DNA from: Hyphomonas sp. | GTDB lineage: Bacteria; Pseudomonadota; Alphaproteobacteria; Caulobacterales; Hyphomonadaceae | Reading direction: 5' to 3' | NCBI GenBank assembly: GCA_013791775.1 | Contig: VMTE01000038.1 | Coordinates: forward strand, 1-32,983 | Length of the DNA stretch: 32,983 bases | Part shown: positions 1 to 18,039 of the stretch, one piece after another | Position numbering within the stretch: the stretch's first letter is position 1 | Layout: each line of letters starts with the position of its first letter | Program-made: the position numbers and the translations under genes | The notes under the pieces: model-generated | Seen by the model: the letters and a program-made list of their open reading frames with translations, nothing else | What the model was told of the DNA's origin: nothing | Database searches by the model: none

Positions 1-140
1 CTCCTACCGGAACCTCGCTCTTGTCCATGCCGACTGCCGCCGCGCGGCAAAACAGGGACTTGCTTGAGCCGTGTGCGGGGAAACTTGCAAGCACGGTTCT
101 GAGGGGGCGGGCCGGTGGCAACACCGGCCTGCTACCCGAC
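1..140 (+). mobile_element. Group II intron, 3' end (partial)
   Basis: This is the 3' part of a bacterial group II intron; the ribozyme core and its reverse transcriptase/maturase would lie upstream, outside the window. Domain V is canonical at 66-99 and a domain VI hairpin follows at 110-129. The probable intron end is the AC at 139-140, after the tail CTACCCGAC, with A134 well placed as branch-point adenosine. Immediately downstream the reading frame becomes the C-terminal part of an ArdA protein, so the intron interrupts that gene. Bases 1-65 are probably the end of domain IV and show no gene. The exact 3' boundary is inferred from the AY rule and from the resumption of protein homology. 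Confidence 0.88.
66..129 (+). ncRNA. Group II intron domains V and VI
   Basis: Domain V folds as an 8-bp lower stem (66-73 with 92-99), a two-base bulge (A90 G91), an upper stem (74-79 with 84-89) and a GAAA tetraloop at 80-83. The catalytic AGC triad is at 67-69. This is the standard architecture of the family. Domain VI is a perfect 8-bp hairpin (110-117 with 122-129) with a GCAA loop. The G-run at 103-107 could pair with CCC at 135-137 to form the base of domain VI and leave A134 unpaired for lariat formation. The pairings are read directly from the sequence; the intron class cannot be assigned without the upstream part. Confidence 0.88.
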
Positions 141-487
141 ATTACGAAGGCTTCGAAGGCGCGCACCTTTCCGAGTACGCCTCGTTCGAGACCGTGTGCG
201 AGCTTGCCGAATTCATCGGCGAGCATGGCGAACTTGCCTCCCGCATCTATGGACACTACGGCAACGACCTTGAACAGGCGCGCGCCGCGTTCGAGGATTA
301 TGCAGGCGAATATCGCAGCGCGGCTGACTTTGCCGAGGAGCTTCACACCGAACTCGGCACGCAGGTCCCCGAGAGCCTCAGCTACTATATCGACTGGCAG
401 GCACTCGCCCGCGACATGGCGCTCAATGGCGAGATCATGGTGTTCCAGACCGGCTTCGACGAAGTCCATGTCTTCTGGTCGCGGTAG
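141..487 (+). CDS. ardA: ArdA-family antirestriction protein, 3' exon
   Basis: This is the C-terminal part, about 115 residues, of an ArdA antirestriction protein, a DNA-mimic protein that blocks type I restriction enzymes when a mobile element enters a new host. The reading frame resumes at YEGFEG just after the intron end and runs through the acidic, Asp/Glu-rich body (segments such as ELAEFIGEHGEL and DYAGEYRSAADFAEEL) to the typical C-terminus FDEVHVFWSR. ArdA proteins are about 165-180 residues, so some 50-60 N-terminal residues should lie beyond the intron, outside the window. The codon split at the junction fits phase-1 insertion, with the 5' exon supplying the first base of an Asp codon. 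Function therefore depends on intron splicing. The formal open frame starting at 71 reads through intron RNA and is not a real N-terminus. Confidence 0.85.
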
Positions 488-714: not shown

Positions 715-1184
715 CGTTCGCTCAAGGCTTCCAATCTTTTGTCTGCCCCGACGATGTCATCAGCTGTGAGGCCGGGCCCTTCACCGTCTTGGCGCAGATT
801 GTGCCGGACGATTGTCCGGACGCACCGGATCAGCGCCAGGACGGCTTCTGGCCCTCGCTCTATGCCGATGCGCCGGGGTTCATCGGCCCCGGGCCAAACC
901 ACCGCCAGCGGTTTGCCGAGGCGCAGGCCAAGGCTGAAGCCGTCATGGAAGGGTGGCGCAAAGGTGAATGGTTCTACTGCGGGATCGTGCTGTCGGTTGC
1001 GCTGGAGGGCGTGGTGCTCGCATCTCACGCGGCCAGCCTTTGGAGCATCGAGGCGAACTTTCCGGGAACGGATAACAGCTACCTCACCGAGGTCGCGAAC
1101 GAACTGCTCCCGGAGGCCATCGCTGTGGCCCGTGAAACGCTCGCGCGGATCGCCCGCCATGCCGACACTCGGGAGCGCGCATGA
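711..1184 (+). CDS. Hypothetical protein of the element backbone
   Basis: This 157-residue protein is of unknown function. The start at 711 is preferred over the longer frame from 642: it overlaps the preceding stop as ATGA, has a GAGGGCG ribosome-binding site just upstream, and the extra N-terminal residues would be Arg-rich shadow sequence. The protein is acidic and soluble-looking, with no signal peptide or membrane segment. Its C-terminal third (EVANELLPEAIAVARETL) looks helical. It ends in another ATGA overlap with the next frame, which indicates translational coupling. No function is proposed. Confidence 0.65.
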   Translation: MTFAQGFQSFVCPDDVISCEAGPFTVLAQIVPDDCPDAPDQRQDGFWPSLYADAPGFIGPGPNHRQRFAEAQAKAEAVMEGWRKGEWFYCGIVLSVALEGVVLASHAASLWSIEANFPGTDNSYLTEVANELLPEAIAVARETLARIARHADTRERA

Positions 1185-1435
1185 TGCCCGACATCTTCGA
1201 ACAGCTGCTCGGCTCGCGCCCGTCGCTGACGCTCGACATCGAGCAGGGCTTTGTCACCGCTATCTGGGTGGAAGGCCGCTGCCCGAATGTGAAGATCCGG
1301 GATTTCGATCTCGGCGCCAGTGCAGCCGATGCTTCGCTCGACACCTTCGGCGCGCCGTTCGTGCCGATCAACTGGCACCTGCCGCCATGGCGGCTGGGCC
1401 TCGCCCTCGCACCCCCACACCTGTTTCCATTCTGA
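1181..1435 (+). CDS. Small hypothetical protein
   Basis: This 84-residue protein is unknown. It starts in an ATGA overlap with the upstream gene; 1184 is an alternative ATG one codon later. It ends at the Shine-Dalgarno sequence of the parB-like gene. The sequence alternates hydrophobic and charged residues in a way compatible with a small beta-rich fold (LTLDIEQGFVTAIWVEGRCPNV) and has a Pro-rich hydrophobic tail. It lies inside the tightly packed ardA-parB run, which supports it being real, but it has no recognisable domain. Confidence 0.55.
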   Translation: MMPDIFEQLLGSRPSLTLDIEQGFVTAIWVEGRCPNVKIRDFDLGASAADASLDTFGAPFVPINWHLPPWRLGLALAPPHLFPF

Positions 1436-1446
1436 GGAGTTACCCC

Positions 1447-3216
1447 ATGTCACAACCTGCTCTGATCCATATCGAGCTCAGCAAGCTCAGCATTTCCAAA
1501 CTCAACATGCGCCATGGGCGGAAAGCTCCGGATGTCTCCGACATCCTGCCGTCGATCCGCGAGAAGGGTATCCGCCAGACGCTCCTCATCCGGCGTGAAG
1601 GCGAGACCTATGGCATCGTCGCCGGACGCCGCCGGTTCTTTGCGCTCCAGCAGATTGCGAAGGAGAGCGGCACCGATCCGCTCGTGCCCTGCGCTGTGAT
1701 GGCGGAAGGCGATGTGGCGTCAGCCATTGAGGCCTCGATCATCGAGAATGTCGCCCGCCTGCCTGCCACCGAGATGGAGCAGTACACGGCCTTCCGGAAA
1801 CTTCACGACGAAAGCCGGACCGTAGAGGAGATCGCGGGCTTCTTTGGTGTGACCGAACTGAATGTCAGGCGGGTGCTGGCGCTGGCTGCGCTCAGCGCAC
1901 CAATCCGCAAGCTATACGCCGATGAGGAGATCGACCGCGAAACGGTTCGGGCGCTGACGCTCGCCACACCTGCGCAACAGGCGGACTGGCTCAAACTCTG
2001 GAACAGCGAGACCGAGCGCGCCCCGATGGGGCGGGCCTGCCGCGCGTGGATCACCGGCGGGAGCGCGATCACAACCGATAAGGCGCTGTTCGACCTCGCC
2101 GGTTACACCGGCGCGGTGATTGCCGACCTGTTCGGCGAGACGGCAGTGTTTGCAGACGCAGCCGCGTTCTGGGAGGCACAAGGCGCCGTGATCGCTGGTC
2201 GCGTCGATAGCTACCGCCAGCGCGGCTGGGCAGATGTGATCCTGTTGGAACGCGGCGCATACTTCCAGCGCTGGGACTATGTCCAGACGACCAAGAAGCA
2301 GGGCGGCAAGGTCATCGTTGAGCAGCGTCACGACGGCACGGTGACGTTCCATGAAGGCTGGCTGAAAGCTGCCGAAGCCCGCAAGGCCAGGACGGCCACG
2401 GTCAGTGGCGAAACCGCCCCGGAAACAGATATGCGGCCCGAGATGTCCGGCCCGATGGCGGACTATATCGGCCTGCACCGGCACGCCATTGCGCAGGCGA
2501 GCCTGATCCGGAACCCGGCTATCGCAATGCGCCTGATGGCGGCCCATGCGCTGTGCGGATCATCGCTCTGGAACGTGCGGCTGCACATGCCGGGCGCCGT
2601 GAAGGAATTGACGATTGCCAGCGTCGAGAGTGGCGCAGCAGCAGCGGAAGTCGGAACCGCTCGTGAACACACCGAGACGCTGTTCGAGGCCCTCGGGGCC
2701 CCGGTCCCGCGCCGGAGCGGAGACGCCTATCACTTGTGCGAGATGATTGCGGCCTTGCTGGCCATGTCCGATGCCGAAGTGGTGCAGGTGATGGCGCTGG
2801 CGATGGCGGAGACGCTTGAGTCCGGCGGGCCCGCTGTCGAGGCTGTGCTGCATGCCTGCGGCACTGACCCGGCAGGGTTCTGGAAACCGGATGAGGCGTT
2901 CTTCGATCTGCTGCGCGACAAGCGGGTGATCACCGCTTTCATCGCCAACGCTGTCTCGCCTGAGGCTGCGGCCGAGGTCGAGGACGCCACCGCCAAAGCG
3001 CAGAAGGCGCAGCTGGCAGAAGCGCTCGTGTCCCGCGAGACCTTGCTCGACAGCGCATGGATGCCGGGTTGGATGCATGTGCCACCCGACCGCCATATCG
3101 AGGGCGCAGCCAGTCCGCCTGCTGATGCCTGGAACCGGATTGCCGGACTGTTCGAGACGAATACCGAGCAGGAATCCGGCGCCGGACCATCGTCTGCTGA
3201 AGCCAACGCTGCCTGA
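1447..3216 (+). CDS. ParB/RepB/Spo0J-like nuclease-domain protein
   Basis: This 589-residue protein has an N-terminal ParB domain: residues about 1-110 include the GRRR box (VAGRRRFFALQ) and the ENVARLP segment, followed by a helix-turn-helix region (TVEEIAGFFGVTELNVRRVL). ParB proteins of this type bind DNA and act in partition or regulation of plasmids and integrative elements. It is about twice the length of a chromosomal ParB. The roughly 380-residue C-terminal part has no domain I can name and is typical of large ParB-like proteins on mobile elements. The start at 1447 is set by GAGGAG at 1434-1439 and by loss of homology upstream; the open frame extending back to 739 is a shadow. No parA is adjacent. 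The gene ends 30 bp before a strong terminator. Confidence 0.85.
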   Translation: MSQPALIHIELSKLSISKLNMRHGRKAPDVSDILPSIREKGIRQTLLIRREGETYGIVAGRRRFFALQQIAKESGTDPLVPCAVMAEGDVASAIEASIIENVARLPATEMEQYTAFRKLHDESRTVEEIAGFFGVTELNVRRVLALAALSAPIRKLYADEEIDRETVRALTLATPAQQADWLKLWNSETERAPMGRACRAWITGGSAITTDKALFDLAGYTGAVIADLFGETAVFADAAAFWEAQGAVIAGRVDSYRQRGWADVILLERGAYFQRWDYVQTTKKQGGKVIVEQRHDGTVTFHEGWLKAAEARKARTATVSGETAPETDMRPEMSGPMADYIGLHRHAIAQASLIRNPAIAMRLMAAHALCGSSLWNVRLHMPGAVKELTIASVESGAAAAEVGTAREHTETLFEALGAPVPRRSGDAYHLCEMIAALLAMSDAEVVQVMALAMAETLESGGPAVEAVLHACGTDPAGFWKPDEAFFDLLRDKRVITAFIANAVSPEAAAEVEDATAKAQKAQLAEALVSRETLLDSAWMPGWMHVPPDRHIEGAASPPADAWNRIAGLFETNTEQESGAGPSSAEANAA

Positions 3217-3477: not shown

Positions 3478-3927
3478 TTAATCAGGGATTCGTGTGGGAC
3501 ATGATTCAGGTCTGCTTTCGTCGAGGAGGTGATTGATCAGTGCGCAATCAGATGTCTCGTCGCCGGTGCACTCCTCGAGAATATCTTCAAGTCTCTGCTC
3601 TAAGAATTGAAGAGCAACAATCCGTGCACGGATATTGTGCTGGTGTCTGGCTGCGAGGGTTTTGATGCTGGCGCAGCTTGACATGCCGTCATTTAGCCCC
3701 AGCAGGGATCGCACGTCGCCCACTGTAAATCCCAGGCCACGCGCCTGAAGGATAAAGCGCAAACGGGCTTGGTCCGCGCCTGAATATAGCCGATGCCCAC
3801 GAGCTGAGCGGTCAGGTTCGCGAAGTAAACCGATCTTTTCATAATAACGAATGGTTTCAAGGTTGCAGCCTAACCGGCTCGCCAACTCGGCCCGCCTTAG
3901 CGTCGCTCTCGACGATGTGATGTCCAT
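3478..3927 (-). CDS. merR: MerR-type mercury-responsive regulator
   Basis: This 149-residue MerR-family activator/repressor has an N-terminal winged-helix region (ASRLGCNLETIRYYEKIGLL), the family signature with YYE, and a long dimerisation helix. Metal-site cysteines are C85 (at the position that marks divalent-metal sensors), C120 and C128. C120 and C128 are separated by seven residues, one fewer than in Tn501 MerR and equal to CueR spacing. The adjacent divergent merTPA genes make mercury the likely inducer. The start at 3927 is chosen because homology begins at MDITSS; the longer frame to 4116 would run through the promoter and into merT. It probably represses its own divergent transcription and twists the merT promoter when bound to Hg(II). 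Confidence 0.88.
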   Translation of the reverse strand: MDITSSRATLRRAELASRLGCNLETIRYYEKIGLLREPDRSARGHRLYSGADQARLRFILQARGLGFTVGDVRSLLGLNDGMSSCASIKTLAARHQHNIRARIVALQFLEQRLEDILEECTGDETSDCALINHLLDESRPESCPTRIPD

Positions 3928-3941
3928 GCCGAATTCTCCGC

Positions 3942-3972
3942 TTGCGTCTGTACCAACTACAGACCGTAACAA
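3942..3972 (+). promoter_or_regulatory. mer promoter and MerR operator
   Basis: The -35 box TTGCGT (3942-3947) and -10 box TAACAA (3967-3972) are separated by 19 bp, the over-long spacer characteristic of MerR-activated promoters. Between them sits a perfect 7-bp inverted repeat, GTCTGTA (3946-3952) and TACAGAC (3958-3964), with a 5-bp centre. Predicted transcription starts near 3979, upstream of merT. The box lies 15 bp from the merR start, so one operator can control both directions. Confidence 0.85.
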
Positions 3973-4006
3973 GAAGAAGAACAGAAGGCCAATGGGATCG
4001 GCAGAG

Positions 4007-4381
4007 ATGTCAGACAAGACGACCAGTTCTGGAAATGATCGCAGATCAAGTTGGCTTACCGCAGGTGGCATTCTTGGGGCCGTCCTCGCCTCATCGTGTT
4101 GCATCCTTCCGCTCATGCTGATCAGCGCCGGGGTGTCTGGTGCTTGGATCGGTCAGCTGACGGTGCTTGAGCCCTACAAACCGGCTTTCATGCTTATCGC
4201 GGCTGGGTTTCTTGCTGCTGGCTTTTGGGAAGTTTATTTTCGGAAGGGTAGGCATTGTGAGGATGGCAGCTACTGTGCCCGTCCCGCTTCCTCTCGGATA
4301 AAGCAGATCGCTCTTTGGGGCGGCGCATTCATCGTAGTTGCGGCTCTGACCATCGATACTTGGGCGCCTCTATTTTATTGA
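4007..4381 (+). CDS. merT: Mercuric transport protein MerT
   Basis: This 124-residue inner-membrane protein with three predicted helices imports Hg(II) from periplasmic MerP to cytoplasmic MerA. The vicinal pair C31-C32 lies in the first helix (SSCCILPLM), and a second cysteine pair, C84 and C90, lies in the cytoplasmic loop between helices 2 and 3 (CEDGSYC), both as in the MerT family. The length fits the family (about 116 residues). The start at 4007 begins MSDKTT and lies downstream of the predicted transcription start; 3992 (MGSAE) is an in-frame alternative. It is followed 15 bp later by merP. Confidence 0.9.
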   Translation: MSDKTTSSGNDRRSSWLTAGGILGAVLASSCCILPLMLISAGVSGAWIGQLTVLEPYKPAFMLIAAGFLAAGFWEVYFRKGRHCEDGSYCARPASSRIKQIALWGGAFIVVAALTIDTWAPLFY

Positions 4382-4396
4382 GCAAGGAGAGCACGG

Positions 4397-4717
4397 ATGA
4401 AGCGAACATGGATAGTTGCCGGATTGGCCGGATTGGCGGTTGTCGGCGGAATGGCGCTTGCTGGCGCGCAGTCCCGGCAGACGGGGGTCGCAGAAGCTCA
4501 GCAGACGACGGCCCGCTTTTCCGTTGAGAACATGACCTGCGCCACATGTCCCATATCGGTGAAAAAGGCGATGATGCGCGTGGATGGCGTCAAGTCTGTG
4601 AAGATCGATTTTAGGACGAAGACCGCGGAGGTTGTTTATGATCCGGCGGCCACGTCACCGGAAATGATTGCCGCGGCTTCAACCAATGTCGGGTATCCGG
4701 CGGTCCGGACCAGTTGA
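4397..4717 (+). CDS. merP: Periplasmic mercury-binding protein MerP
   Basis: This 106-residue protein has an N-terminal signal sequence (hydrophobic run about residues 5-23, ending AGAQS) and one heavy-metal-associated (HMA) domain with the motif MTCATC, cysteines C48 and C51. MerP captures Hg(II) in the periplasm and hands it to MerT. The start has a good ribosome-binding site, AAGGAGA at 4385-4390. It is slightly longer than typical MerP (about 91 residues) because of a linker between the signal sequence and the HMA domain. Confidence 0.9.
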   Translation: MKRTWIVAGLAGLAVVGGMALAGAQSRQTGVAEAQQTTARFSVENMTCATCPISVKKAMMRVDGVKSVKIDFRTKTAEVVYDPAATSPEMIAAASTNVGYPAVRTS

Positions 4718-4899
4718 TGATCAGAGCGCATAATGTGATTTGCGCTGCTCGGTGCGTGGAAGGCCGACACCCAGATCGGGTCGTACCGTGAGAGCTGTTC
4801 CGGTGACTTCGAAACCGCTCTGCGCGAACCGTTACTCATGGAACAACCCGGCTTCGCGCTATCCCCCGGTTCACGACACCAAGGTCCAAGGAAAGCTGA

Positions 4900-6324
4900 A
4901 TGAGAGACGATTGTTGCCCGCTGAAGAATGAATACGACCTGGCCGTGATTGGTGCCGGGTCGGCTGGCTTCTCCGCCGCCATAACGGCCGCAGAGGGTGG
5001 TATGCGTGTCGCACTTATAGGTCACGGCACGATTGGCGGCACTTGTGTAAACGTCGGATGCGTGCCCTCCAAGACGATGATCCGCGCCGCTGAGGCGCTG
5101 CATGGCGCGCAGTCGGTTCATCGGTTCCAGGGCCTCTGGGGAGACGCGCAGGTTTCAGACTGGGCGGCTTTGATCGCAGCAAAGGACGATCTCGTCGCGA
5201 CCCTTCGGCAGAAGAAGTACGCCGATCTTCTGCCCGGCTACAACGGCGTGACTTACATAGACGAAGGGCCAGCCCGGCTCGTCCCCGGCGGTGTCGAGGT
5301 CGGCGGGCGCAAGCTCACGGCATCCAGGGTCATTGTTGCGACGGGCGGCCGGCCCACAATGCCCGACATCCCCGGCATTTTTGATGTGCCCACGCTCGAC
5401 AGCACATCGCTGCTGGAGCTCGACCGGCTGCCCGAGAGCCTGATCTTCCTTGGCGGCGGCTATATCGGTGTGGAACTCGCACAGATGATAGCGAGGATGG
5501 GCACACGCGTCACGATCGTTTGCCGTTCGCGCGTGTTGCCGCGCACCGAACCTGAGGTGTCCGAAGCCCTCGCGCATGTATTGCGCGATGAGAATATCTC
5601 GGTTGTTGAAAACGTGACCTATGAAGGCGCACGACTGCAAGGCAGCCGTGCAGTCTTGACGGTGATCATGGACGGCGCCGTGCGCGACCTGACGGCCGAT
5701 TACCTTGTTGCGACGACCGGGCGTACGCCCAACACGAAAGGGTTGGGACTCGAAGAGATGGGTGTTGAGACCGATCCGCTTGGTGCAATCAAGGTTGGCG
5801 AAGACATGGCCACAACTCGTGCCGGCATATACGCTGCCGGCGACGTGACCGACCGGGATCAATTCGTCTATATGGCCGCTTATGGCGCCAAGCTGGCGGC
5901 GCGAAATGCGGTACTGGGAGGGAAGGAATGCTACGACAACGCCGCGATGCCGTGGGTGGTATTCTGTGATCCGCAGATTGCTGGTGTCGGTCTGACCGAG
6001 GCGCAGGCTTACGCCGCGGGCTATGATGTCAAGACCAGCGTGCTTCCGCTTGAGAATGTTCCTCGGGCGCTCGCGGCACGCAATACCACAGGGCTGATCA
6101 AGTTGGTCGCAGACCGGGCTAATGACCGGTTACTCGGTGGTGTGATCATGGCGCCGGAAGGCGGTGATAGTATCCAGACACTTTCACTGGCACTGAAGTT
6201 CGGCATGACGACAAAGTCGCTCGGCGAAACGATTTTCCCTTATTTAACGACAGTCGAGGGGTTCAAGCTGGCGGCGCAGGCTTTCGACAAGGATGTCGCG
6301 AAACTCTCCTGTTGCGCGGGCTGA
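4900..6324 (+). CDS. merA: Mercuric reductase MerA, no NmerA domain
   Basis: This 474-residue flavoprotein reduces Hg(II) to volatile Hg(0) with NADPH. It has the FAD-binding GAGSAG motif at about residues 18-23, the redox-active pair C49/C54 in TCVNVGCVPSK, the NAD(P)-binding GGGYIGVE, the second FAD motif ending YAAGDVT, and the C-terminal dimerisation domain. The C-terminal vicinal pair C471-C472 (LSCCAG) receives mercury from the partner subunit and separates true MerA from other disulfide reductases. The N-terminal HMA domain (NmerA) is absent; an unusual Cys pair C5-C6 is present instead. The start has AAGGAAAG upstream. A 182-bp gap after merP holds no convincing gene. Confidence 0.95.
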   Translation: MRDDCCPLKNEYDLAVIGAGSAGFSAAITAAEGGMRVALIGHGTIGGTCVNVGCVPSKTMIRAAEALHGAQSVHRFQGLWGDAQVSDWAALIAAKDDLVATLRQKKYADLLPGYNGVTYIDEGPARLVPGGVEVGGRKLTASRVIVATGGRPTMPDIPGIFDVPTLDSTSLLELDRLPESLIFLGGGYIGVELAQMIARMGTRVTIVCRSRVLPRTEPEVSEALAHVLRDENISVVENVTYEGARLQGSRAVLTVIMDGAVRDLTADYLVATTGRTPNTKGLGLEEMGVETDPLGAIKVGEDMATTRAGIYAAGDVTDRDQFVYMAAYGAKLAARNAVLGGKECYDNAAMPWVVFCDPQIAGVGLTEAQAYAAGYDVKTSVLPLENVPRALAARNTTGLIKLVADRANDRLLGGVIMAPEGGDSIQTLSLALKFGMTTKSLGETIFPYLTTVEGFKLAAQAFDKDVAKLSCCAG

Positions 6325-6450
6325 GTCGCCGATTGGCACGCATTTCCTTTTTGCCGGTCAGTCACACCGCTCCACAAAGCGGCCGGGAGCATCACCGGCA
6401 TCAATCGCGAAGTCTCAGACCGGCACAAACCCGCCGGCGTCCAATCCGGC

Positions 6451-6909
6451 TCATTCGGGGTTGCCCGGACGTGCGATTCTGGTGTCCAGGCAATCAGCGC
6501 CCTCGGTCCCTGTGTTGCAGATCGACATGATACGGTAGCTTCCGTCGCGGCCTTGCTTGACCTCGAACGCGACAGTGTCGCCTTCGGAAAATCCAGTGAG
6601 GTCGACATCACCTGCGATGTCGAAACCCATAGTCATCGCGCCCATGCCAACGCCGTCAATGGGGCCGTGATCGATGGTCAGGAAGTCCGATTGGCCCGCC
6701 ACGGATTTGATCGTGCCCGTCGCACGGCCGATCCGCTCGCCGGCGCTGGACAAGTCAGAACTGGCCATCTCCGTCGGCGCGGTCTCGGCCGCCATCTCCA
6801 TCGGCGCCTCCGCTGCCATTGTTTCGGCCGGGCGGGCTTCCTGAGGGTTGCCGCAGGCGGCGAGGCTGAGTGCGGCGAGGCTCGCGGTGATCAGGTTCCG
6901 GGTGTTCAT
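6451..6909 (-). CDS. cusF: CusF-like copper-binding lipoprotein
   Basis: This 152-residue protein has a lipoprotein signal (LSLAAC, lipidated C19), a low-complexity linker rich in Ala/Glu/Met (residues about 25-52), and a C-terminal CusF-like small beta-barrel domain with IDHGPI and MGAMTMGF. CusF proteins bind Cu(I)/Ag(I) in the periplasm and deliver it to the Cus pump. The aromatic tryptophan of E. coli CusF is not visible at the equivalent site. The Met-rich linker may add metal ligands. It is the last gene of the minus-strand efflux operon and its start overlaps the cusA stop (ATGA). An Asp-Cys-containing tail (SICNTGTEGADC) may form a disulfide. Confidence 0.82.
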   Translation of the reverse strand: MNTRNLITASLAALSLAACGNPQEARPAETMAAEAPMEMAAETAPTEMASSDLSSAGERIGRATGTIKSVAGQSDFLTIDHGPIDGVGMGAMTMGFDIAGDVDLTGFSEGDTVAFEVKQGRDGSYRIMSICNTGTEGADCLDTRIARPGNPE

Positions 6910-9900
6910 GTCAGGTCTCCTTTTGTTTCAGTTAGGTCAAGGTGGGCGTCATCCGTGCTGGCTCCGGCGCGCGCGGAAAGCTGGAACCCGGTCCGGATAT
7001 AGTAGATCGCCGGGATGACGATCAGGGTGAGGATCAGGGTCGAGGCCATGCCGCCCAGCATCGGCAGGGCAATCCGGCGCATGACGTCTGAACCCAGCCC
7101 TTCGGTCAGGAAGATCGGGGCGAGCCCTACCAGCAGCGTAAATACGGTCATCAGCTTCGGCCGGACGCGCATGGCGGCGCCGCGGCTGATGGCGGCAAAG
7201 AGGTCGGCATGTGTCCGGGGCTGGGCTTTGCGCACTTCGCCGTCGATATAGAGCAGCATGATCACGGCGGTTTCCGCCGCGATGCCGCCGAGCGCGATGA
7301 ACCCGACGGCCACGGCGACAGAGAGGTTGTAGCCTGCGAGCCAGACCGCCCATATGCCGCCGATCAGACCGAAGGGCAGGCTTGCCATGATGATCAGTGT
7401 CCGGTCGAGCCGCCCGAAATGCAGCATCAGGAGCAGGAAGATCAGCGCGACTGCGGCCGGGATCGCGATAGCGAGCCGGGCATTGGCTTCTGCAAGCTGT
7501 TCGTACTGGCCAGAGAAGGTCACGGCATAACCGGCGGGCAACTCGACTGCTGCGGCGACGGCTTCGCGTGCTTCGGTGACATAGCTACCCATGTCGCGCC
7601 CGGCGATATCGACGAACACCCAGCCGGTGAGCCGGGCATTCTCGGAGCGGATCATCGGCGGGCCCTCGCTATAGGCGATGGCCGCGAGTTCCCCGAGCGG
7701 GACGTGTGCGCCCGTTGGAGTGGGTACGAGGACCGTTTCGAGGTCGCCGGCGTCTTCGCGGAAAGGCCGGTCATAGCGCAGGATGATGTCATAGCGTTCC
7801 CGGCCCTCGACGGACTGGGCGAGCCGCATGCCGCCGAGGGCGCTTTGCACCACGGCCTGAAAGGTACCCATGTCGATATTTCGCCGGGCGAGTTCGGCCC
7901 TGTCGGGCGTGATCTCGAGAAATTTGCCGCCGAGCACCCGGTCGGCAAAGGCTGACCGCGTGCCGGGCAGTTGCGAAACTACGGCTTCGATATCTCGGGC
8001 GATGCGCTCGATCTCCGCGAGGCTGTCGCCGGTGACTTTCACGCCGATAGGCGTGCGCACGCCAGTCGAGACCATGTCCATGCGGATCTTGATCGGGTAA
8101 CCCCAGGAATTGACGAGGCCTGGCATCTGGAGGCGTTGGTTGAGTTCGTCCTGCAGGGCTTCCGGCGTCAGGCCGGGCCGCCACTCCTCTTTCGGCTTCA
8201 GGTGGACCCAGGTCTCGATCATGGTCAGCGGCGCGGGGTCGGTGGCCGTGTCGGCGCGGCCGGCCTTGCCGAAAACGCGCTCGACTTCCGGCACGGTCAT
8301 GATGACGCGGTTCGTCTGGCCGAGGATTTCGCGCATCTTGGTCGCGGAGGCGCCGGGCAGGGTGATCGGCATGTAAAGGAGTTCGCCCTCGTAGAGCGCG
8401 GGCATGAATTCCGAACCCAGCCGCTGGACGGGAACAATGACGCTGGCAGTGAGTGCAAGTGCAAGGGCAACAGTTACCCACTTGAACCTCAGCGCGAGGT
8501 GCAGGACAGGTTTGTAGACCCATATGAAAAATACATTCAGCGGATTGGCTTCCTCGCGCCGGAACTTGCCGCGCATCAGGTAGAGCATCAGCACTGGCAC
8601 AAGGGTCACCGACAGGATGGCTGCAAACGCCATCGCGTAGGTCTTGGTGAAGGCGAGCGGGCTGAACAGGCGGTAGCTTTCACCGGTCAGCGCAAAGACC
8701 GGCAGGAACGACACCGTGATGATCAGCAGCGAAAAGAAGATACCGGGGCCGACTTCCTGCGCCGCCTCAATCAGGGCTGCGCGGCGCGTCCGTGCATCGA
8801 TCCGGTCGCCGAGTTCGGACAATCTGCGGCTCGCGTTCTCGACGAGCACGATAGAGGCATCAACCATGGCGCCGATGGCGATGGCGATGCCGCCGAGGCT
8901 CATGATGTTGGCGGTGACACCCTGCAGCGACATGATGAGGAAAGCGCCGAGCACGCCGAGCGGCAGGGCGATAACCGCGACCAGGGACGAGCGTACATGC
9001 AGGAGGAAGACAAGGATCACCAGCGCGACCACGATGCCTTCCTCGATGAGTTTCTCCTTGAGGTATGCAACGGCGCCTTCGATGAGCGGGGCGCGGTCAT
9101 AGACCGTGACGATCTCGACGCCGTCCGGCAGGCCGCGCTGGAGTTCGGAGAGCTTGTCTTTCACACGGCCGATGACCTGCAAGGCGTTCTCGCCATCGCG
9201 CATGATGACGATGCCGGCGACAGTCTCGCCCTCACCGTTCAGTTCCACAACGCCGCGCCGAAGGGCCGGGCCTTCGATGATGCGTGCGACGTCCCGCAGG
9301 AGGACGGGTGTTCCGTCCGCTGCATATAAAACCACCTGCTCAAGATCAGCACGTTCATCGATATAGCCTGACGAACGGATGATGAACTCGGTTTCAGCCT
9401 GTTCGAGAACGCGTCCACCCACCTCGCTTGACGCGGCGCGCACTGCATCCCTGACCCACCCGAGTGGCAGGTCGTAGCGGCGCAGCGCATTGGGATCGAT
9501 CAGGACCTGGTATTCGCGGACGAAGCCTCCTACCGATGCAATCTCGGCGACGCCTTCCACGCCGGCCAGTTCGAGCTTCAGGAACCAGTCCTGGAGGGAG
9601 CGAAGCTCGGCAAGATCAGTGTTTCCCGTCTTGTCGACCAGCGCATACTGGTAAACCCATCCCACGCCGGTCGCGTCCGGCCCTATCCTGGGGACCGCGC
9701 CTTCGGGCAGGGCCGGGCCCAGACGCGAGAGCGCTTCAAGGACGCGCGAGCGGGCCCAGTAAAGATCCACATCGTCCTCGAAGATCACGTAGACAAAGCT
9801 TGTCCCGAACATCGAGGTGGCGCGGACGTCCTTCGTCTTCGGCAGGCCGAGCAGGTTCGTCGAGAGCGGATACGTGACGAGGTCTTCGACAATCTGGGGG

Positions 9901-10115
9901 CTCTGACCCGGAAAGTCGGTGCGGATTATGACCTGCGTATCGGTGAGATCGGGAATCGCATCGAGCGGCGTGCGTTCTACGGCCAGCCAGCCGGCAACCG
10001 CCAGTGCGGCGGCGAGGATGAGGACGATAAGCTGGTTGCGGACCGACCAGGAAATCAGGCCCGCGACCCACGAACGGGATGGATCGCGGCCAGAGAGATC
10101 TTCAGGCGCGCTCAT
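6906..10115 (-). CDS. cusA: CusA-type Cu(I)/Ag(I) RND efflux pump
   Basis: This 1069-residue inner-membrane RND transporter of the heavy-metal (HME) group has twelve expected transmembrane helices in the usual 1+5+1+5 arrangement and two large periplasmic loops. The N-terminal DLTDTQVIIRT matches the monovalent-cation (Cus/Sil) branch better than the Czc branch. Proton-relay positions are retained: Asp in GAMVDASIV (TM4), Glu in GGIAAETAV (TM10) and Lys in RPKLMTV (TM11). A methionine in RMDMVSTG fits a substrate-pathway Met of E. coli CusA. It pumps cuprous or silver ions from the periplasm or cytoplasm through CusB and CusC, driven by protons. It overlaps cusB and the cusF-like gene by ATGA. 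Long open frames on the opposite strand here are shadows. Confidence 0.94.
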   Translation of the reverse strand: MSAPEDLSGRDPSRSWVAGLISWSVRNQLIVLILAAALAVAGWLAVERTPLDAIPDLTDTQVIIRTDFPGQSPQIVEDLVTYPLSTNLLGLPKTKDVRATSMFGTSFVYVIFEDDVDLYWARSRVLEALSRLGPALPEGAVPRIGPDATGVGWVYQYALVDKTGNTDLAELRSLQDWFLKLELAGVEGVAEIASVGGFVREYQVLIDPNALRRYDLPLGWVRDAVRAASSEVGGRVLEQAETEFIIRSSGYIDERADLEQVVLYAADGTPVLLRDVARIIEGPALRRGVVELNGEGETVAGIVIMRDGENALQVIGRVKDKLSELQRGLPDGVEIVTVYDRAPLIEGAVAYLKEKLIEEGIVVALVILVFLLHVRSSLVAVIALPLGVLGAFLIMSLQGVTANIMSLGGIAIAIGAMVDASIVLVENASRRLSELGDRIDARTRRAALIEAAQEVGPGIFFSLLIITVSFLPVFALTGESYRLFSPLAFTKTYAMAFAAILSVTLVPVLMLYLMRGKFRREEANPLNVFFIWVYKPVLHLALRFKWVTVALALALTASVIVPVQRLGSEFMPALYEGELLYMPITLPGASATKMREILGQTNRVIMTVPEVERVFGKAGRADTATDPAPLTMIETWVHLKPKEEWRPGLTPEALQDELNQRLQMPGLVNSWGYPIKIRMDMVSTGVRTPIGVKVTGDSLAEIERIARDIEAVVSQLPGTRSAFADRVLGGKFLEITPDRAELARRNIDMGTFQAVVQSALGGMRLAQSVEGRERYDIILRYDRPFREDAGDLETVLVPTPTGAHVPLGELAAIAYSEGPPMIRSENARLTGWVFVDIAGRDMGSYVTEAREAVAAAVELPAGYAVTFSGQYEQLAEANARLAIAIPAAVALIFLLLMLHFGRLDRTLIIMASLPFGLIGGIWAVWLAGYNLSVAVAVGFIALGGIAAETAVIMLLYIDGEVRKAQPRTHADLFAAISRGAAMRVRPKLMTVFTLLVGLAPIFLTEGLGSDVMRRIALPMLGGMASTLILTLIVIPAIYYIRTGFQLSARAGASTDDAHLDLTETKGDLT

Positions 10116-11920
10116 GGACGGACACCTTTCATCGGGTCAGGCCAGGCGACAGGTTCAGACGGTCCATCTGTGTACGGATTGTGCGGGTCTGCACCCTCCT
10201 GCAGCCAGAGCCGGCCGGTACCAGTGTCCCGGAACAAGATGAGGCCGGCCTCGCGGTAATGGACCGGCGCGCCGTCCAGAAGCCAGGGTTCGATCGCGGT
10301 CGTCAGCCGGGCGAGATTATCCGCCAAGGCGGAGCCATCATCTGCCGTCTTCGCGGCGCGAAGGGCGGCCTCTGCCTCTTCGAGAATAGGCTCAAGCCTT
10401 GTCTGCGCAAAACGCGCGCGCAGCGTTTCGCCGAGTAAGAGAGCGGGGTCCACGAAGCGCGCATCGATCCGGTAGTTATCCGTGAGGGCTTCATGGAAAT
10501 ATAGAGCCATGTCCGTAAAGTGATCGATATTCGCAAGTGTCGCCGCATCGACCGGAAGTTCAGACAGCGGCGTATCCGGTCCGGCCGTGACAGCGGCGGG
10601 CCCCTGCAGCTTGGCGAGACCTTCACGGAGGTTGGCCTCGCTGTCGAGCAGGAACTGGCCGCTGGCGACGACTTCGTCACCAGCGCTCAGGCCAGACAGG
10701 ATCTCGGTGCGGCTATTGGCTCGGATCCCGGTCGTAACGGCGCGGCCCGTGAACCGGCCCTCTCCAAGTGCGATGATCACCTGCGCACCGCGGCTGTCCT
10801 GCAGCACTGCTTCGCTGGGCACAGACAGGCGGGTCTCACCCGGGATATCGATGGCAATGTCGGCATAGGCCCCGGGGCGAAGGTAACCGGCAGCATTGTC
10901 GATCTCTATTCGAACCTGGGCAGTGCGGGTTTTCGGGTCGATGGTCGGATAGATATAGTCGATCACGCCGGTACCGGGCGCCTCTGGCGCGCTGGGGAAG
11001 GACAAGCGAACCGGGAAACCGGTCTCGATCAGCGACAGGTCCGTTTCCGGAATCGCCGCCATTATCCAGACGCCCGCATAAGATTGCAGGCGCAGGATTG
11101 GCGTGCCGGGTTTGATATAGTCGCCTTCTCGCACCTCAAGGGCCGCGACAGTCCCACCAGCTTCCGCATAGACGGGCACCCGCTCGATGACCGCACGGGT
11201 CTCGGCCACGCGGTTGATCGCGGCGTCCTGCATGCCGAGCGAGCGCAGGCGCTGGCGCACGGCGGCAATCCGCTTGTCGTTGCCGATGGCGAAGGCGTTG
11301 AGGAAATCTTTCTGCGCGGCGATCAGGTCAGGGCTGTAGACGCGGTAGAGCAGGGCGCCCGGTCGAACCGCGTCGCCTTCAGCGCGCACGGTTAAAGTAT
11401 CGATCCAGCCTTCGAGACGTGCGACGGAGACGTTTTCGAGACGGTCATTGGTCTCGACCGTGCCGAACGCGCGCAGCGAGCGCCCGAAGGCCGCAGTCTC
11501 TGCTCTGACCGTCCGTATTCCCATCGTCTGGATCATTTCCGGGGAAACGATGACACCAGGTTCGGCGGCTTCATCTGCATAGACCGGTATGTAGTCCATC
11601 CCCATGAAGTCTTTCTTGGGAATGGGCGAAGTGTCCGGCTGACCCATAGGGTTCTTGTAATAGAGGATATCACCGCGCCCCGCGCTTGCGGTGTTCCCGC
11701 TGACCGGCACGAGGTCCATGCCGCAGATCGGACAGGAACCGCCTGCGTCTGTCGAGATATAATGCGGATGCATAGGACAGGTGTACGAGGCCGCCTGAGC
11801 GTCAGTTGAAGTCCCTGCGCCCGCAGAGCTGCCCTGGGAGCGCACGCCAGAGGCATCGCTGCAGGCGGCAAGCAGCGCGGCGGAAGCCGCAACGGTGAGG
11901 AGGAGAAGGCGGCGGTTCAT
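10112..11920 (-). CDS. cusB: CusB-type periplasmic adaptor with extra metal domains
   Basis: This 602-residue membrane-fusion lipoprotein (LLAAC, C20) links the RND pump to the outer-membrane channel. Domains in order: a heavy-metal-binding domain at about 46-73 (YTCPMHPHYISTDAGG followed by CPICGMDLVP), a second Met segment at about 86-115 (NPM and FMGMD) equivalent to the metal-binding N-terminus of E. coli CusB, then the barrel-sandwich, alpha-hairpin and beta-barrel adaptor core to about 435. A C-terminal DUF3347 domain (about 465-600) starts IDHFTDMALYFHEAL and includes the GLILFRDTG/WLQEGADPHNPY region. It is about 200 residues longer than E. coli CusB because of the added end domains. 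It overlaps both neighbours by 4 bp. Confidence 0.92.
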   Translation of the reverse strand: MNRRLLLLTVAASAALLAACSDASGVRSQGSSAGAGTSTDAQAASYTCPMHPHYISTDAGGSCPICGMDLVPVSGNTASAGRGDILYYKNPMGQPDTSPIPKKDFMGMDYIPVYADEAAEPGVIVSPEMIQTMGIRTVRAETAAFGRSLRAFGTVETNDRLENVSVARLEGWIDTLTVRAEGDAVRPGALLYRVYSPDLIAAQKDFLNAFAIGNDKRIAAVRQRLRSLGMQDAAINRVAETRAVIERVPVYAEAGGTVAALEVREGDYIKPGTPILRLQSYAGVWIMAAIPETDLSLIETGFPVRLSFPSAPEAPGTGVIDYIYPTIDPKTRTAQVRIEIDNAAGYLRPGAYADIAIDIPGETRLSVPSEAVLQDSRGAQVIIALGEGRFTGRAVTTGIRANSRTEILSGLSAGDEVVASGQFLLDSEANLREGLAKLQGPAAVTAGPDTPLSELPVDAATLANIDHFTDMALYFHEALTDNYRIDARFVDPALLLGETLRARFAQTRLEPILEEAEAALRAAKTADDGSALADNLARLTTAIEPWLLDGAPVHYREAGLILFRDTGTGRLWLQEGADPHNPYTDGPSEPVAWPDPMKGVRP

Positions 11921-13134
11921 GGTTGCACCAGAAGGGCGTTGATACGCGACGCGGCCCCCGCCCTGCGCGCCTCTTCGGCGGCAATGTCTGCACGCAGTTT
12001 AAGGATCGCGATCTCGCCGTCGATGATCGGGGCATAGGTGCCGGCGCCGGACTCGTAGATCGTCAATTGAGCGGCGATCTCGTCGTCCACGGCGGCGATG
12101 TTTTGCGCGAGGACCGCAATCGTTTCTTTCGCAGCCTTCCAGGCCGCTGTTTCGGCAGCGTACCGGGCGGCAGCGCTGCGGGCAGCAGCCTGATACTGCA
12201 TTTCGGCGCTCGCCCGGTCGGCTTGCGCGGCCCGCAGTCGCGGCGCCTGACTGCGGCCGGACCAGAATGGAACGCTGAAGGTCACCATGCCTGAGACCCA
12301 GTCATCACCCGCAAAGTTGGCGCCCGCGTCGCGCTGCTGATAGGTCAGCTGCGCGCCCCAGTTGGGTTTCCAGGCCGCCTCTGCGCCGTCGATGGCGTAG
12401 CCTGCGACATCCATCCCGGCCTCGGCGACCCGGACGGCGTGAAAGTCGCGGGCCTCGCCGCTCCAGCTGGCAGGCTCGACCGGCGGCGCGGGGGTAGTCG
12501 GCACGAGACCTGTCAGGTCGACAAGGCGCGCATCGATTTCAGCCTCACGCTGCTTCAGGACGACGAGCTCTCGGGCGACGCGGGTGCGTTCAGCCTCGAT
12601 CTCGGCGAGCCGGAAAACGGCTGGACGCCCAGCATCGATTTCGGCCGCGGCAACCTCTGTCAGTTCGTCATACTTTACGCGGCGGCTTTCTGCGAGTTCC
12701 TGCTGGCCGGCGATGCTTTGCTTCTCGTGAAGCAGTGCGACGAGTTCGCCGTGCAGCATCGCCAGCTGGGCGTCCCGAAGCCGATCGGTTTGCACAGCCA
12801 TGGCGCGTGCCTCGCCGGATCGCGCCTCGCGGCCCGCACGGCTGGGAATGGCCTGGCTGACACCGACGGCCTTGTTGGTCGGGAGGAAAGCGTTGAACGA
12901 CGGATCGAAGACCGGGAAATTGTTGACGCCGAGCGAGACCACGGGATCAGGCAGGGCGGTCGCAGCGACGGCCCGCTCGCGGCCCGCTTCAGCTCGTTGA
13001 GTGAGGGCTTCTAACGATGGATGCTGGCGCAGACGCGCATCGAGTTCTTCAAGCGATTGAGATGCGGCCGGCAGTGCGACTGCCGCGAGCGCCAGGGCTG
13101 CGAAGAGCAGCCCGTTTCTGAGTGGGGAATACAT
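11917..13134 (-). CDS. cusC: CusC-type TolC-family outer-membrane channel
   Basis: This 405-residue outer-membrane efflux protein has an N-terminal signal peptide (to about residue 26, AASQS) without a lipobox cysteine, followed by the two long coiled-coil repeats of the family: heptad-rich segments such as SGEARAMAVQTDRLRDAQL and ERTRVARELVVLKQREAEI. Pro-rich turns separate the halves. It forms the outer-membrane exit duct of the CusCBA tripartite pump. It is the first structural efflux gene and overlaps cusB by 4 bp. E. coli CusC is a lipoprotein; this one appears not to be. Confidence 0.88.
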   Translation of the reverse strand: MYSPLRNGLLFAALALAAVALPAASQSLEELDARLRQHPSLEALTQRAEAGRERAVAATALPDPVVSLGVNNFPVFDPSFNAFLPTNKAVGVSQAIPSRAGREARSGEARAMAVQTDRLRDAQLAMLHGELVALLHEKQSIAGQQELAESRRVKYDELTEVAAAEIDAGRPAVFRLAEIEAERTRVARELVVLKQREAEIDARLVDLTGLVPTTPAPPVEPASWSGEARDFHAVRVAEAGMDVAGYAIDGAEAAWKPNWGAQLTYQQRDAGANFAGDDWVSGMVTFSVPFWSGRSQAPRLRAAQADRASAEMQYQAAARSAAARYAAETAAWKAAKETIAVLAQNIAAVDDEIAAQLTIYESGAGTYAPIIDGEIAILKLRADIAAEEARRAGAASRINALLVQP

Positions 13135-13923: not shown

Positions 13924-14295
13924 TGCATCCCCCGGACCTCGAAGCGCAGCAGTGTAGCGCTATGTGGTCCACGTCGTTCAGCTGAACAGATTTTCGGCAA
14001 ATATCAAGGCTGCCGAAGCGATTCCGAGAACATCGACAGATTCACGTTTCGGATAGGCATTATAGCCGGACAAGCTGATCGAGCCAATGCTCTCAGCCGC
14101 AGTTGATAGGCATTTTTCCCAGCACGATTAGAAGTTCGTTGCCGTACTGACTTTCGCCGGCGGTCCAAAGATGCAGACAGCGCCAACTATAGATGACATC
14201 AAGCAGGGCCACAGTTCGAACAGACTCGGTTTCTCATCGAGATGTCGCTGTGCGTTAGACGTTTTGTGGCTCTCAATCGTTTCCGGAACCTGCCT
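13924..14295. other. Region with no convincing gene
   Basis: This stretch has lower GC than its surroundings and several short open frames on both strands, none with a good ribosome-binding site, GC3-biased codons or a recognisable protein. It separates the metal-resistance cargo from the resumed conjugation backbone and may contain the cargo insertion boundary. I see no terminal inverted repeat or duplicated target site in it. Confidence 0.5.
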
Positions 14296-14301
14296 CTCGC
14301 G

Positions 14302-14512
14302 GACCCCTTGTTCCCGTCTCTTGCCGTGTGACCTGGACGACGCGGGTCCGCCCCGAAACCGGCGCTTCCGGAGAATTTTCCCCTGCGCTTCGCGCATTCC
14401 TCGCGGCGCAAAATTCTCCTGCGGGCCGGTGCTCCGCTGCGCTGCGCCCCTGACGGGTTCAGGCCGGCCCCGCGCCGTCCGGGCGGTCCGGCGTCGACGG
14501 GGACAAGGGGTC
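14302..14512. other. Strongly folded segment upstream of DUF736 gene
   Basis: Nested inverted repeats enclose about 210 nt. The outer arms 14302-14318 and 14496-14512 match at 16 of 17 positions. A second pair, 14336-14353 and 14481-14498, matches at 15 of 18. Inside lie two hairpins: GGAGAATTTT (14370-14379) with AAAATTCTCC (14410-14419), and GGGCCGG (14423-14429) with CCGGCCC (14464-14470). The layout is an outer stem enclosing two arms. It ends 36 bp before the DUF736 start. It could be a structured RNA leader, an origin-like DNA structure or a protein-binding region; the sequence does not decide which. Confidence 0.55.
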
Positions 14513-14548
14513 TCCGGGACGACGAGCAGAAACGAAAGGAACTCCCAA

Positions 14549-14872
14549 ATGGCCAACGCACTCGGATATGTCAGCGAAACCAAGACCGGCTTCGAAGGCG
14601 CCCTCGCAATGATGAACCTTACGAGCCCGATCCGCATCGAGAAGAACGCGGAAAAAGGCGCCGAAGGACAACCGGACTACCGCATCTTCGCCGGTGAAAC
14701 CTCGACTGAAATCGGCGGCGGCTGGCTCAGGAAAGCGAAAGCATCGGGACGCGAATACGTCTCGATCACCCTCGCAGACCCGCAGATCGGACCCCGCAAG
14801 ATCTACGCAAACCTTGCGCCGGTCAAAGGCAAGAAAGGCCGCCACGTGATCCTCTGGAACCCGAAGGACTGA
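14549..14872 (+). CDS. DUF736 family protein
   Basis: This 107-residue DUF736 protein is a family commonly found in alphaproteobacterial conjugative plasmids and integrative elements near the transfer genes; its biochemical role is not established. Landmarks are the MANALGYVSE start, PDYRIFAG, the SGREYVSITLADPQ core and the C-terminal HVILWNP. AAAGGA at 14535-14540 serves as ribosome-binding site. The open frame extends upstream to 14171 through the folded segment, but homology begins at 14549. It is monocistronic, with a strong terminator 23 bp after the stop. Confidence 0.9.
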   Translation: MANALGYVSETKTGFEGALAMMNLTSPIRIEKNAEKGAEGQPDYRIFAGETSTEIGGGWLRKAKASGREYVSITLADPQIGPRKIYANLAPVKGKKGRHVILWNPKD

Positions 14873-15781: not shown

Positions 15782-15999
15782 CAGGACCACAGAGCCATGC
15801 AAAGCGCTGCAGGGCGGAGCAGGCGTCTCCAAAGCGGACCCGGTAGGGCGAGATTAAAGCTGTGGCACCTTGTGCCCCCTAACGCCTTGTCTGCACATCT
15901 CTTTTTTGGCGTCCTTTGCACAGCATTGCAGTGCACGGGTCTGGCGCATGGTGTCGATTCCGCTGGCATTTCGAGGGTGCACAGTGCGGGAGCGGTGTT
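15782..15999 (+). other. Relaxase upstream region, candidate oriT
   Basis: This 218-bp gap between traF and the relaxase gene contains no convincing gene. It includes GTGCCCCCT near 15870, one mismatch from the GTGCGCCCT nick core of RSF1010-type oriT, repeated GTGCAC elements (around 15938 and 15978) and a T-rich patch. The position directly upstream of a relaxase gene is common for oriT. The relaxase is not of the RSF1010 type, so the nick-core similarity may be chance. Confidence 0.3.
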
Positions 16000-17925: not shown

Positions 17926-18039
17926 AGCTCTGCATAGCCTTGCGGCGTGCTGCACGCATTGGCGTGCTTTGCGGATGGCGGCGCGCCCCGAAGGCAGCGC
18001 AGTTTGGCGCTGTTTTGAGTTTGCATGGAAGGACCCGCC

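Follow-up and report, generated by a model that had tools for sequence, protein, structure and literature searches.

A group II intron at one conserved codon of ardA anti-restriction genes in Hyphomonas and its relatives

We found the 3′ end of a group II intron joined directly to the 3′ exon of an ardA anti-restriction gene at the start of a 32,983-nucleotide contig of Hyphomonas sp. This whole stretch is hereafter called the window; it is the complete contig C12 of a genome assembled in 51 contigs. The intron is best explained as a mobile, ORF-containing element that homes to ardA and most likely still splices, with ArdA still being made. Judging from the sequences, we assign this reading a probability of roughly 0.85. 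An initial annotation of the same DNA had already placed a group II intron inside ardA. The analysis adds that three ardA genes of this one genome are most likely split, that the same site is occupied in other Hyphomonadaceae, and that a conserved ArdA motif is matched by the exon-binding sequence EBS1 of the intron.

Positions 1 to 140 of the window constitute the 3′ end of the intron, and the ArdA 3′ exon follows from the 140/141 junction. The sole Rfam match in the window at the gathering threshold was RF00029 at positions 64 to 140, at full model length (66.9 bits, E = 2.9e-11, gathering threshold 40), which was the group II search that the initial annotation had suggested. Domain V comprises 34 nt and has the AGC triad at 67 to 69, a GAAA loop and a two-base AA bulge; in domain VI the bulged A at 134 is the seventh nucleotide from the 3′ end. 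The 77 nt were predicted to fold with −51.8 kcal/mol (z = −7.0; none of 200 shuffles was equally good), with A134 unpaired. The annotated succession of domain V, domain VI and a resumed ArdA frame was therefore upheld by the RF00029 match, the fold and the PF07275 match (profile 50-154). A chance domain V-like hairpin was ruled out by the 66.9 bits, the z of −7.0 and the presence of a full intron elsewhere in the genome. The upstream part of the intron is absent from the window because the contig starts, at nucleotide 1, inside the intron. The features of this region are as follows.

2 to 67, forward strand: the C-terminal 21 codons (2 to 64) and stop codon of the intron-encoded reverse transcriptase/maturase, a protein with a C-terminal Cys/His region; assigned by the identity of window 1 to 140 to C16:82114-82253, where a 577-codon frame (80447-82177) ends whose whole protein is above the TIGR04416 cut-off.
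66 to 99, forward strand: group II intron domain V with AGC triad, GAAA loop and 2-nt bulge; RF00029 match and fold.
103 to 137, forward strand: group II intron domain VI with the predicted branch point, the bulged A at 134; RF00029 match and fold.
140 to 141, forward strand: 3′ splice junction, with the intron end GAC at 140 and exon 2 from 141, the second base of an Asp codon; assigned by the end of the RF00029 match at 140, by 5′ exons that end in CAYG before GTGCG and by the uninterrupted site of intact ardA loci.
141 to 487, forward strand: ardA 3′ exon encoding the C-terminal part of ArdA, with the stop codon TAG at 485 to 487; PF07275, 92.9 bits, profile 50-154 (49-154 in the genome search).

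A complete copy of the intron was identified on another contig of the genome (C16:79923-82253, 2331 nt), its end lying one base short of the contig end. It starts with GTGCG and ends with GAC, consistent with the GUGYG 5′ end and AY 3′ end of group II introns, and its domain I-IV core matched RF02012 (group-II-D1D4-7) with 45.7 bits (gathering threshold 34). Between this core and domain V lies an intact open frame of 577 codons (C16:80447-82177; start codon not settled), whose reverse transcriptase/maturase product has RVT_N, RVT_1 and GIIM domains above the Pfam cut-offs and passes TIGR04416 (367.8 vs 300 bits). Its C-terminal Cys/His region is HNH-like, with Pfam HNH_3 and Endonuclease_7 below their cut-offs (E 0.013-0.044). 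The closest solved chain was 6me0_C, which aligned from residue 24 to 571, Cys/His region included. We take the maturase reverse transcriptase of 6me0, 6mec and 8fli to be that of the T.el4h intron of Thermosynechococcus, which differs from the ardA intron in host and target. Values of dN/dS for the intron protein were 0.149, 0.147 and 0.075 in three pairs, indicating purifying selection.

The frame of the 5′ exon stays open through intron nucleotides 1-521 up to a TGA stop, after which the frame of the intron protein follows in the same frame (TGA CAG ATG; L015:3923-4446 corresponds to nucleotides 1-524 of the C16 intron). Such an open exon frame was seen in all three ardA introns considered, and also in 8, 6 and 4 of 2000 shuffles of them; in five related introns, no frame is free of stops. 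Substitutions by codon position in the 521-nt stretch were 13/7/12 and 13/9/11 in two wider pairs, which is not a protein-like pattern, and 9/8/3 in a third pair. A protein-coding role of this stretch is recorded here and not claimed.

RF00029 was detected at four places among the 51 contigs, namely at the starts of C6, C10 and the window and at the end of C16. ArdA (PF07275) was detected at six places: as 3′ exons in the window and on C10 and C6 (profile 49-154), and as 5′ exons on C16, C44 and C46 (profile 1-49). The same intron start, GTGCGACC, comes after all three 5′ exons, and each 3′ exon is preceded by the 3′ end of this intron. The exons share an identical codon phase and meet at profile position 49; both match the family and adjoin on its profile, single exons scoring 40.9 and 92.9 bits. 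Given three 5′ exons with an intron start, three 3′ exons and a full intron on C16, three ardA genes of the genome are most likely split. The reverse transcriptase, domain I and 5′ ArdA exon that the initial annotation had predicted upstream were thus recovered in the same assembly; instead of a missing core, a missing reverse transcriptase or an intact adjoining 5′ exon, the genome holds an intron core, a reverse transcriptase and interrupted 5′ exons. Pairwise dN/dS of the exons was 0.14-0.47, i.e. purifying selection that may be older than the insertion. In this genome the intron interior was assembled on C16 alone, and the copy of the window over 140 nt only. The 3′ exon of the window may belong with the 5′ exon on C44: the intact alleles L101 and L104 resemble both (92 and 90% for the C44 5′ exon, 91 and 90% for the window 3′ exon), but their downstream flank continues unbroken into C10 and not into the window. 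Upstream of a split ardA on C46 lie genes for two long proteins with RHS repeats, one of which has a transglutaminase-like domain (L017:1499-8404).

Every copy in this genome touches a contig end, as would be the case if assembly had wrongly joined one intron to unrelated ardA fragments. We find such an artefact hardly credible. C16, L070 in Hyphomonas chukchiensis and L061, L067 and L068 in Henriciella mobilis all cross a border between an exon and a full-length intron, L070 crosses both borders, and independent assemblies agree.

The host is a marine bacterium, and its ardA is carried by mobile DNA. Transfer genes were examined in the window, where the genes downstream of ardA include the following.

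739 to 3216, forward strand: open reading frame with a ParB_N domain, adjoining ardA (PF02195, E = 3e-8; start unsettled, ATG at 1447 likelier); a block matching it follows ardA on C10.
3851 to 13134, no single strand given: metal-type cargo between the ParB-like and DUF736 genes, encoding MerT-like, pyridine-nucleotide disulphide oxidoreductase, RND pump, membrane fusion and outer membrane proteins; Pfam and comparison with C10.
14171 to 14872, forward strand: DUF736 protein (PF05284), with matching blocks on C6 and C10.
15916 to 17925, forward strand: relaxase-like protein (DUF3363, MobA/VirD2 type; PF11843 and PF03432; NF041267 RlxS at 525.5 bits, below its cut-off of 850).
18025 to 20001, forward strand: type IV coupling protein (PF02534, E = 3e-104).

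The ardA and DUF736 blocks of the window recur in unchanged order on C10 and C6, and the block at the ParB-like gene recurs on C10; for this reason the three split ardA genes are probably carried by three related mobile elements. The cargo, of metal-resistance type, is absent between the matching blocks on C10, which has ~0.1 kb there where the window has ~11 kb.

The intron splits the Asp codon of the conserved motif IHDYEGF: exon 1 ends in CAY G and exon 2 starts with AY TAY GAR GG. This motif ranks sixth for conservation among 171 seven-residue segments (25 distinct ArdA sequences from 34 loci), and the five better segments all overlap one other motif. In a published survey, group II introns showed no preference for conserved sites (PMC2814812). 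The codon phase and the Pfam positions of the exons (1-49 and 49-154) fit exact splicing. The uninterrupted site ATYCAYG-AYTAY was present in 36 of 36 examined intact ardA loci, drawn from 104 full-length matches and several of them near-identical, and the idea that empty ardA alleles are target-site mutants was accordingly unsupported.

A nine-nucleotide hairpin loop at intron nucleotides 266-274 offers CGTGGA, which forms six Watson-Crick pairs with exon bases −6 to −1 (TCCACG). At ATCCACG, the pairing of EBS1 with the intron-binding sequence IBS1 comprises 6 of 7 Watson-Crick pairs for the intron of this genome and 7 of 7 for those of Henriciella mobilis and Hyphomonas chukchiensis; the other common ardA sites, ATCCATG and ATTCACG, give 5-6 pairs plus one GU. 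With loops picked by eye with the flanks in view, in a register common to four intron types with different targets (the Chondrocystis loop falls in another column of the automatic alignment), three rhizobial ardC flanks yielded 7, 4 and 5 pairs, the Agrobacterium intron 5 and the Chondrocystis intron 6, and pairings across intron types 0-4. The weakest case was the ardC flank of pSymA, with 4 pairs plus one GU with its own loop vs 4 pairs with the Chondrocystis loop. A fourth rhizobial copy (L074), with an ardC-like 3′ flank and a 5′ end that was not found, was left out of the comparison. These counts indicate that EBS1 in domain I pairs with IBS1, with covariation across introns with different targets. 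A possible EBS2 at intron nucleotides 154-159, located by eye in the alignment, showed no clear covariation.

Intron DNA matched at E 0.001 in 9 genomes among 150 relatives, the present genome included, several of these matches being short or distant. ArdA was found in 59 of 105 Hyphomonadaceae genomes, with 104 full-length matches in 54 genomes and partial matches made up of 12 5′ exons ending at 49, 8 3′ exons starting at 49-50 and 12 others. One of these others (G159:C222, ArdA 1-50) is a Henriciella MAG contig that carries the intron start, so that the interrupted 5′ exons amount to 13 in 6 of the 105 genomes; all eight 3′ exons begin behind the 3′ end of the intron. Seven of the 12 others were fetched, and the six besides G159:C222 (G153:C69, G029:C359 and G002:C21, C79, C73 and C53) were without an intron match. 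A full-length ArdA match with an in-frame TAG was also noted in a Hyphomonadaceae genome (G158:C16:696-1163). Scanning public genome contigs for the 20-nt intron start returned 15 stretches, from Hyphomonas oceanitis, H. atlantica, H. chukchiensis, Henriciella mobilis and two MAGs labelled Henriciella and Neomegalonema. The 5′ flank was readable in 12 of them and was ardA, confirmed by profile, in 11 and not ardA in one; the remaining three start at the intron itself. Among 385 genomes of the class, the intron protein was found at E 1e-120 or better in the present genome only; ArdA occurred in 11, with no match starting or ending at 49-50 outside the present genome. Viral contigs gave no hits for the intron 5′ end and two distant relatives of the intron protein, and no record in a plasmid collection covered 80% of the intron in one place.

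Several observations bear on whether the intron has moved recently. ArdA copies interrupted at the same codon could stem from a single old insertion in an ardA ancestor, with the elements diverging afterwards and no recent movement, but this is very improbable. In the present genome, the intron 5′ ends (C16, C44 and C46) are identical over 137 nt and the 3′ ends are identical to C16 over 140, 140 and 104 nt. By contrast, the neighbouring exons show differences at 35-50 of 150 and 58-105 of 347 positions (17-33%). Introns of two genera are ~91% identical, and three genomes (G002, G005 and G064) contain both interrupted and intact ardA. In Henriciella mobilis, six contig copies, which their flanks assign to three insertions, show no difference over 2327-2331 nt, and their ardA exons differ at 42 of 150 and 78 of 347 positions; identity between intron copies partly reflects repeat assembly, in which contig copies may share one assembled sequence, and the true value is perhaps slightly lower. 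Moreover, Henriciella mobilis M65 carries an ectopic copy (L065 and L066; M65_S9 and M65_S6) that lies antisense in a photolyase-related gene (PF04244), the first codons of which are read on the partner contig. This copy is identical to the ardA copies over 2331 nt, and its target GTCCTCG resembles the ardA site ATCCACG. The pattern is consistent with a retroelement that was active recently, homing to ardA and occasionally landing elsewhere. Homing would nevertheless seem too infrequent to fill all ardA alleles, since most alleles in the family (104 full-length) are empty although all 36 examined match the site.

The split ardA gene can probably work only if the intron RNA cuts itself out. The initial annotation had left two options, an intron that splices or a lost gene, and we consider splicing the likelier. 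Under the second option the intron would splice too poorly, the three ardA genes would be effectively knocked out and the elements would manage without ArdA. Bacterial group II introns often act as selfish insertions, and two of four rhizobial ardC relatives of the intron have broken 3′ exons. We still regard this outcome as improbable, given that nothing is broken in the domain I core, in domain V, in domain VI (which has its bulged A), at either intron end or in the protein frame, the intron protein appears to be under purifying selection, the codon phase is exact, and none of six translated ardA 3′ exons has a stop. The sense orientation in ardA says nothing for splicing, as site recognition alone yields that orientation.

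Accepting an ardA-homing intron that still splices, we propose the following course. The DNA encoding the ArdA motif I-H-D-Y-E-G-F would be recognised through pairing of EBS1 with the last 6-7 bases of exon 1, and the intron RNA together with its own reverse transcriptase/maturase would insert copies of the intron, by retrohoming, into unoccupied ardA alleles on further elements of that cell. Transfer of ardA-bearing elements, presumably by conjugation, would bring the intron to new hosts. In the mRNA, the intron would excise itself with its maturase and the Asp codon would be rejoined, giving an ArdA with putative anti-restriction activity. A doubtful extension is that the intron acts as a gate on anti-restriction, ArdA being made only where the intron splices, with ardA (ardC in a related lineage) as its home because such genes are common to competing conjugative elements. 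The open 5′ exon frame would then let ribosomes run from ardA via unspliced RNA to the intron protein, so that maturase output would be coupled to ardA translation.

The closest known counterpart is Ll.LtrB of Lactococcus, with Ef.PcfG of Enterococcus. These are likewise mobile introns with a reverse transcriptase/maturase, Ll.LtrB residing in a gene of a conjugative plasmid; homing has been described for them and spread by conjugation inferred (PMC6003770, PMC4256276, PMC5072309). Ll.LtrB lies in a conjugative relaxase gene and lowers relaxase expression and conjugation (PMC6003770), and Ef.PcfG, its homolog, is taken as a sign of lateral transfer between genera (PMC5072309). The target here, by contrast, is ardA, with three paralogous targets occupied in one genome, and the intron protein matches the 6me0 maturase far better than LtrA (E 3e-102 vs 8e-44).

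Four rhizobial plasmid introns (L073, L074, L075 and L076), from Sinorhizobium medicae (CP140906, CP140908 and CP140912) and Rhizobium ruizarguesonis (CP140857), encode a protein ~48% identical and have ardC-like 3′ flanks. The upstream exon was ArdcN in L073 and L076, the two tested with Pfam, and the L073 exons meet at ArdcN profile 72/73. They resemble the ardA intron in an alignable domain I, the same EBS1 loop register and a location inside a conserved domain of another anti-restriction gene, and differ in the gene (ardC), in the phase (0) and in having no open exon frame through the intron. With the broken 3′ exons in L074 and L075, related introns do sit in dead genes. A clade-wide liking for anti-restriction genes was considered and dropped: the rhizobial ardC introns (48%) are no closer than those of Agrobacterium (48.7%) and Chondrocystis (49.5%), whose flanks were without an anti-restriction gene in the translations and annotation viewed. 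A published intron also lies in a counter-defence gene of a mobile element, but belongs to class IIA, and that gene is unrelated to ardA; the term ardA is absent from the main text of that paper. Among the papers listed by searches of open-licence literature, no title or abstract opening described an ardA or ardC intron.

Of most interest is that a single conserved ArdA motif has served repeatedly as the insertion site in an anti-restriction gene. With the intron in an anti-restriction gene that mobile elements carry, the survival of an incoming element under restriction could hinge on splicing. Because occupied and empty ardA alleles coexist in the same genomes, this question is testable in environmental bacteria.
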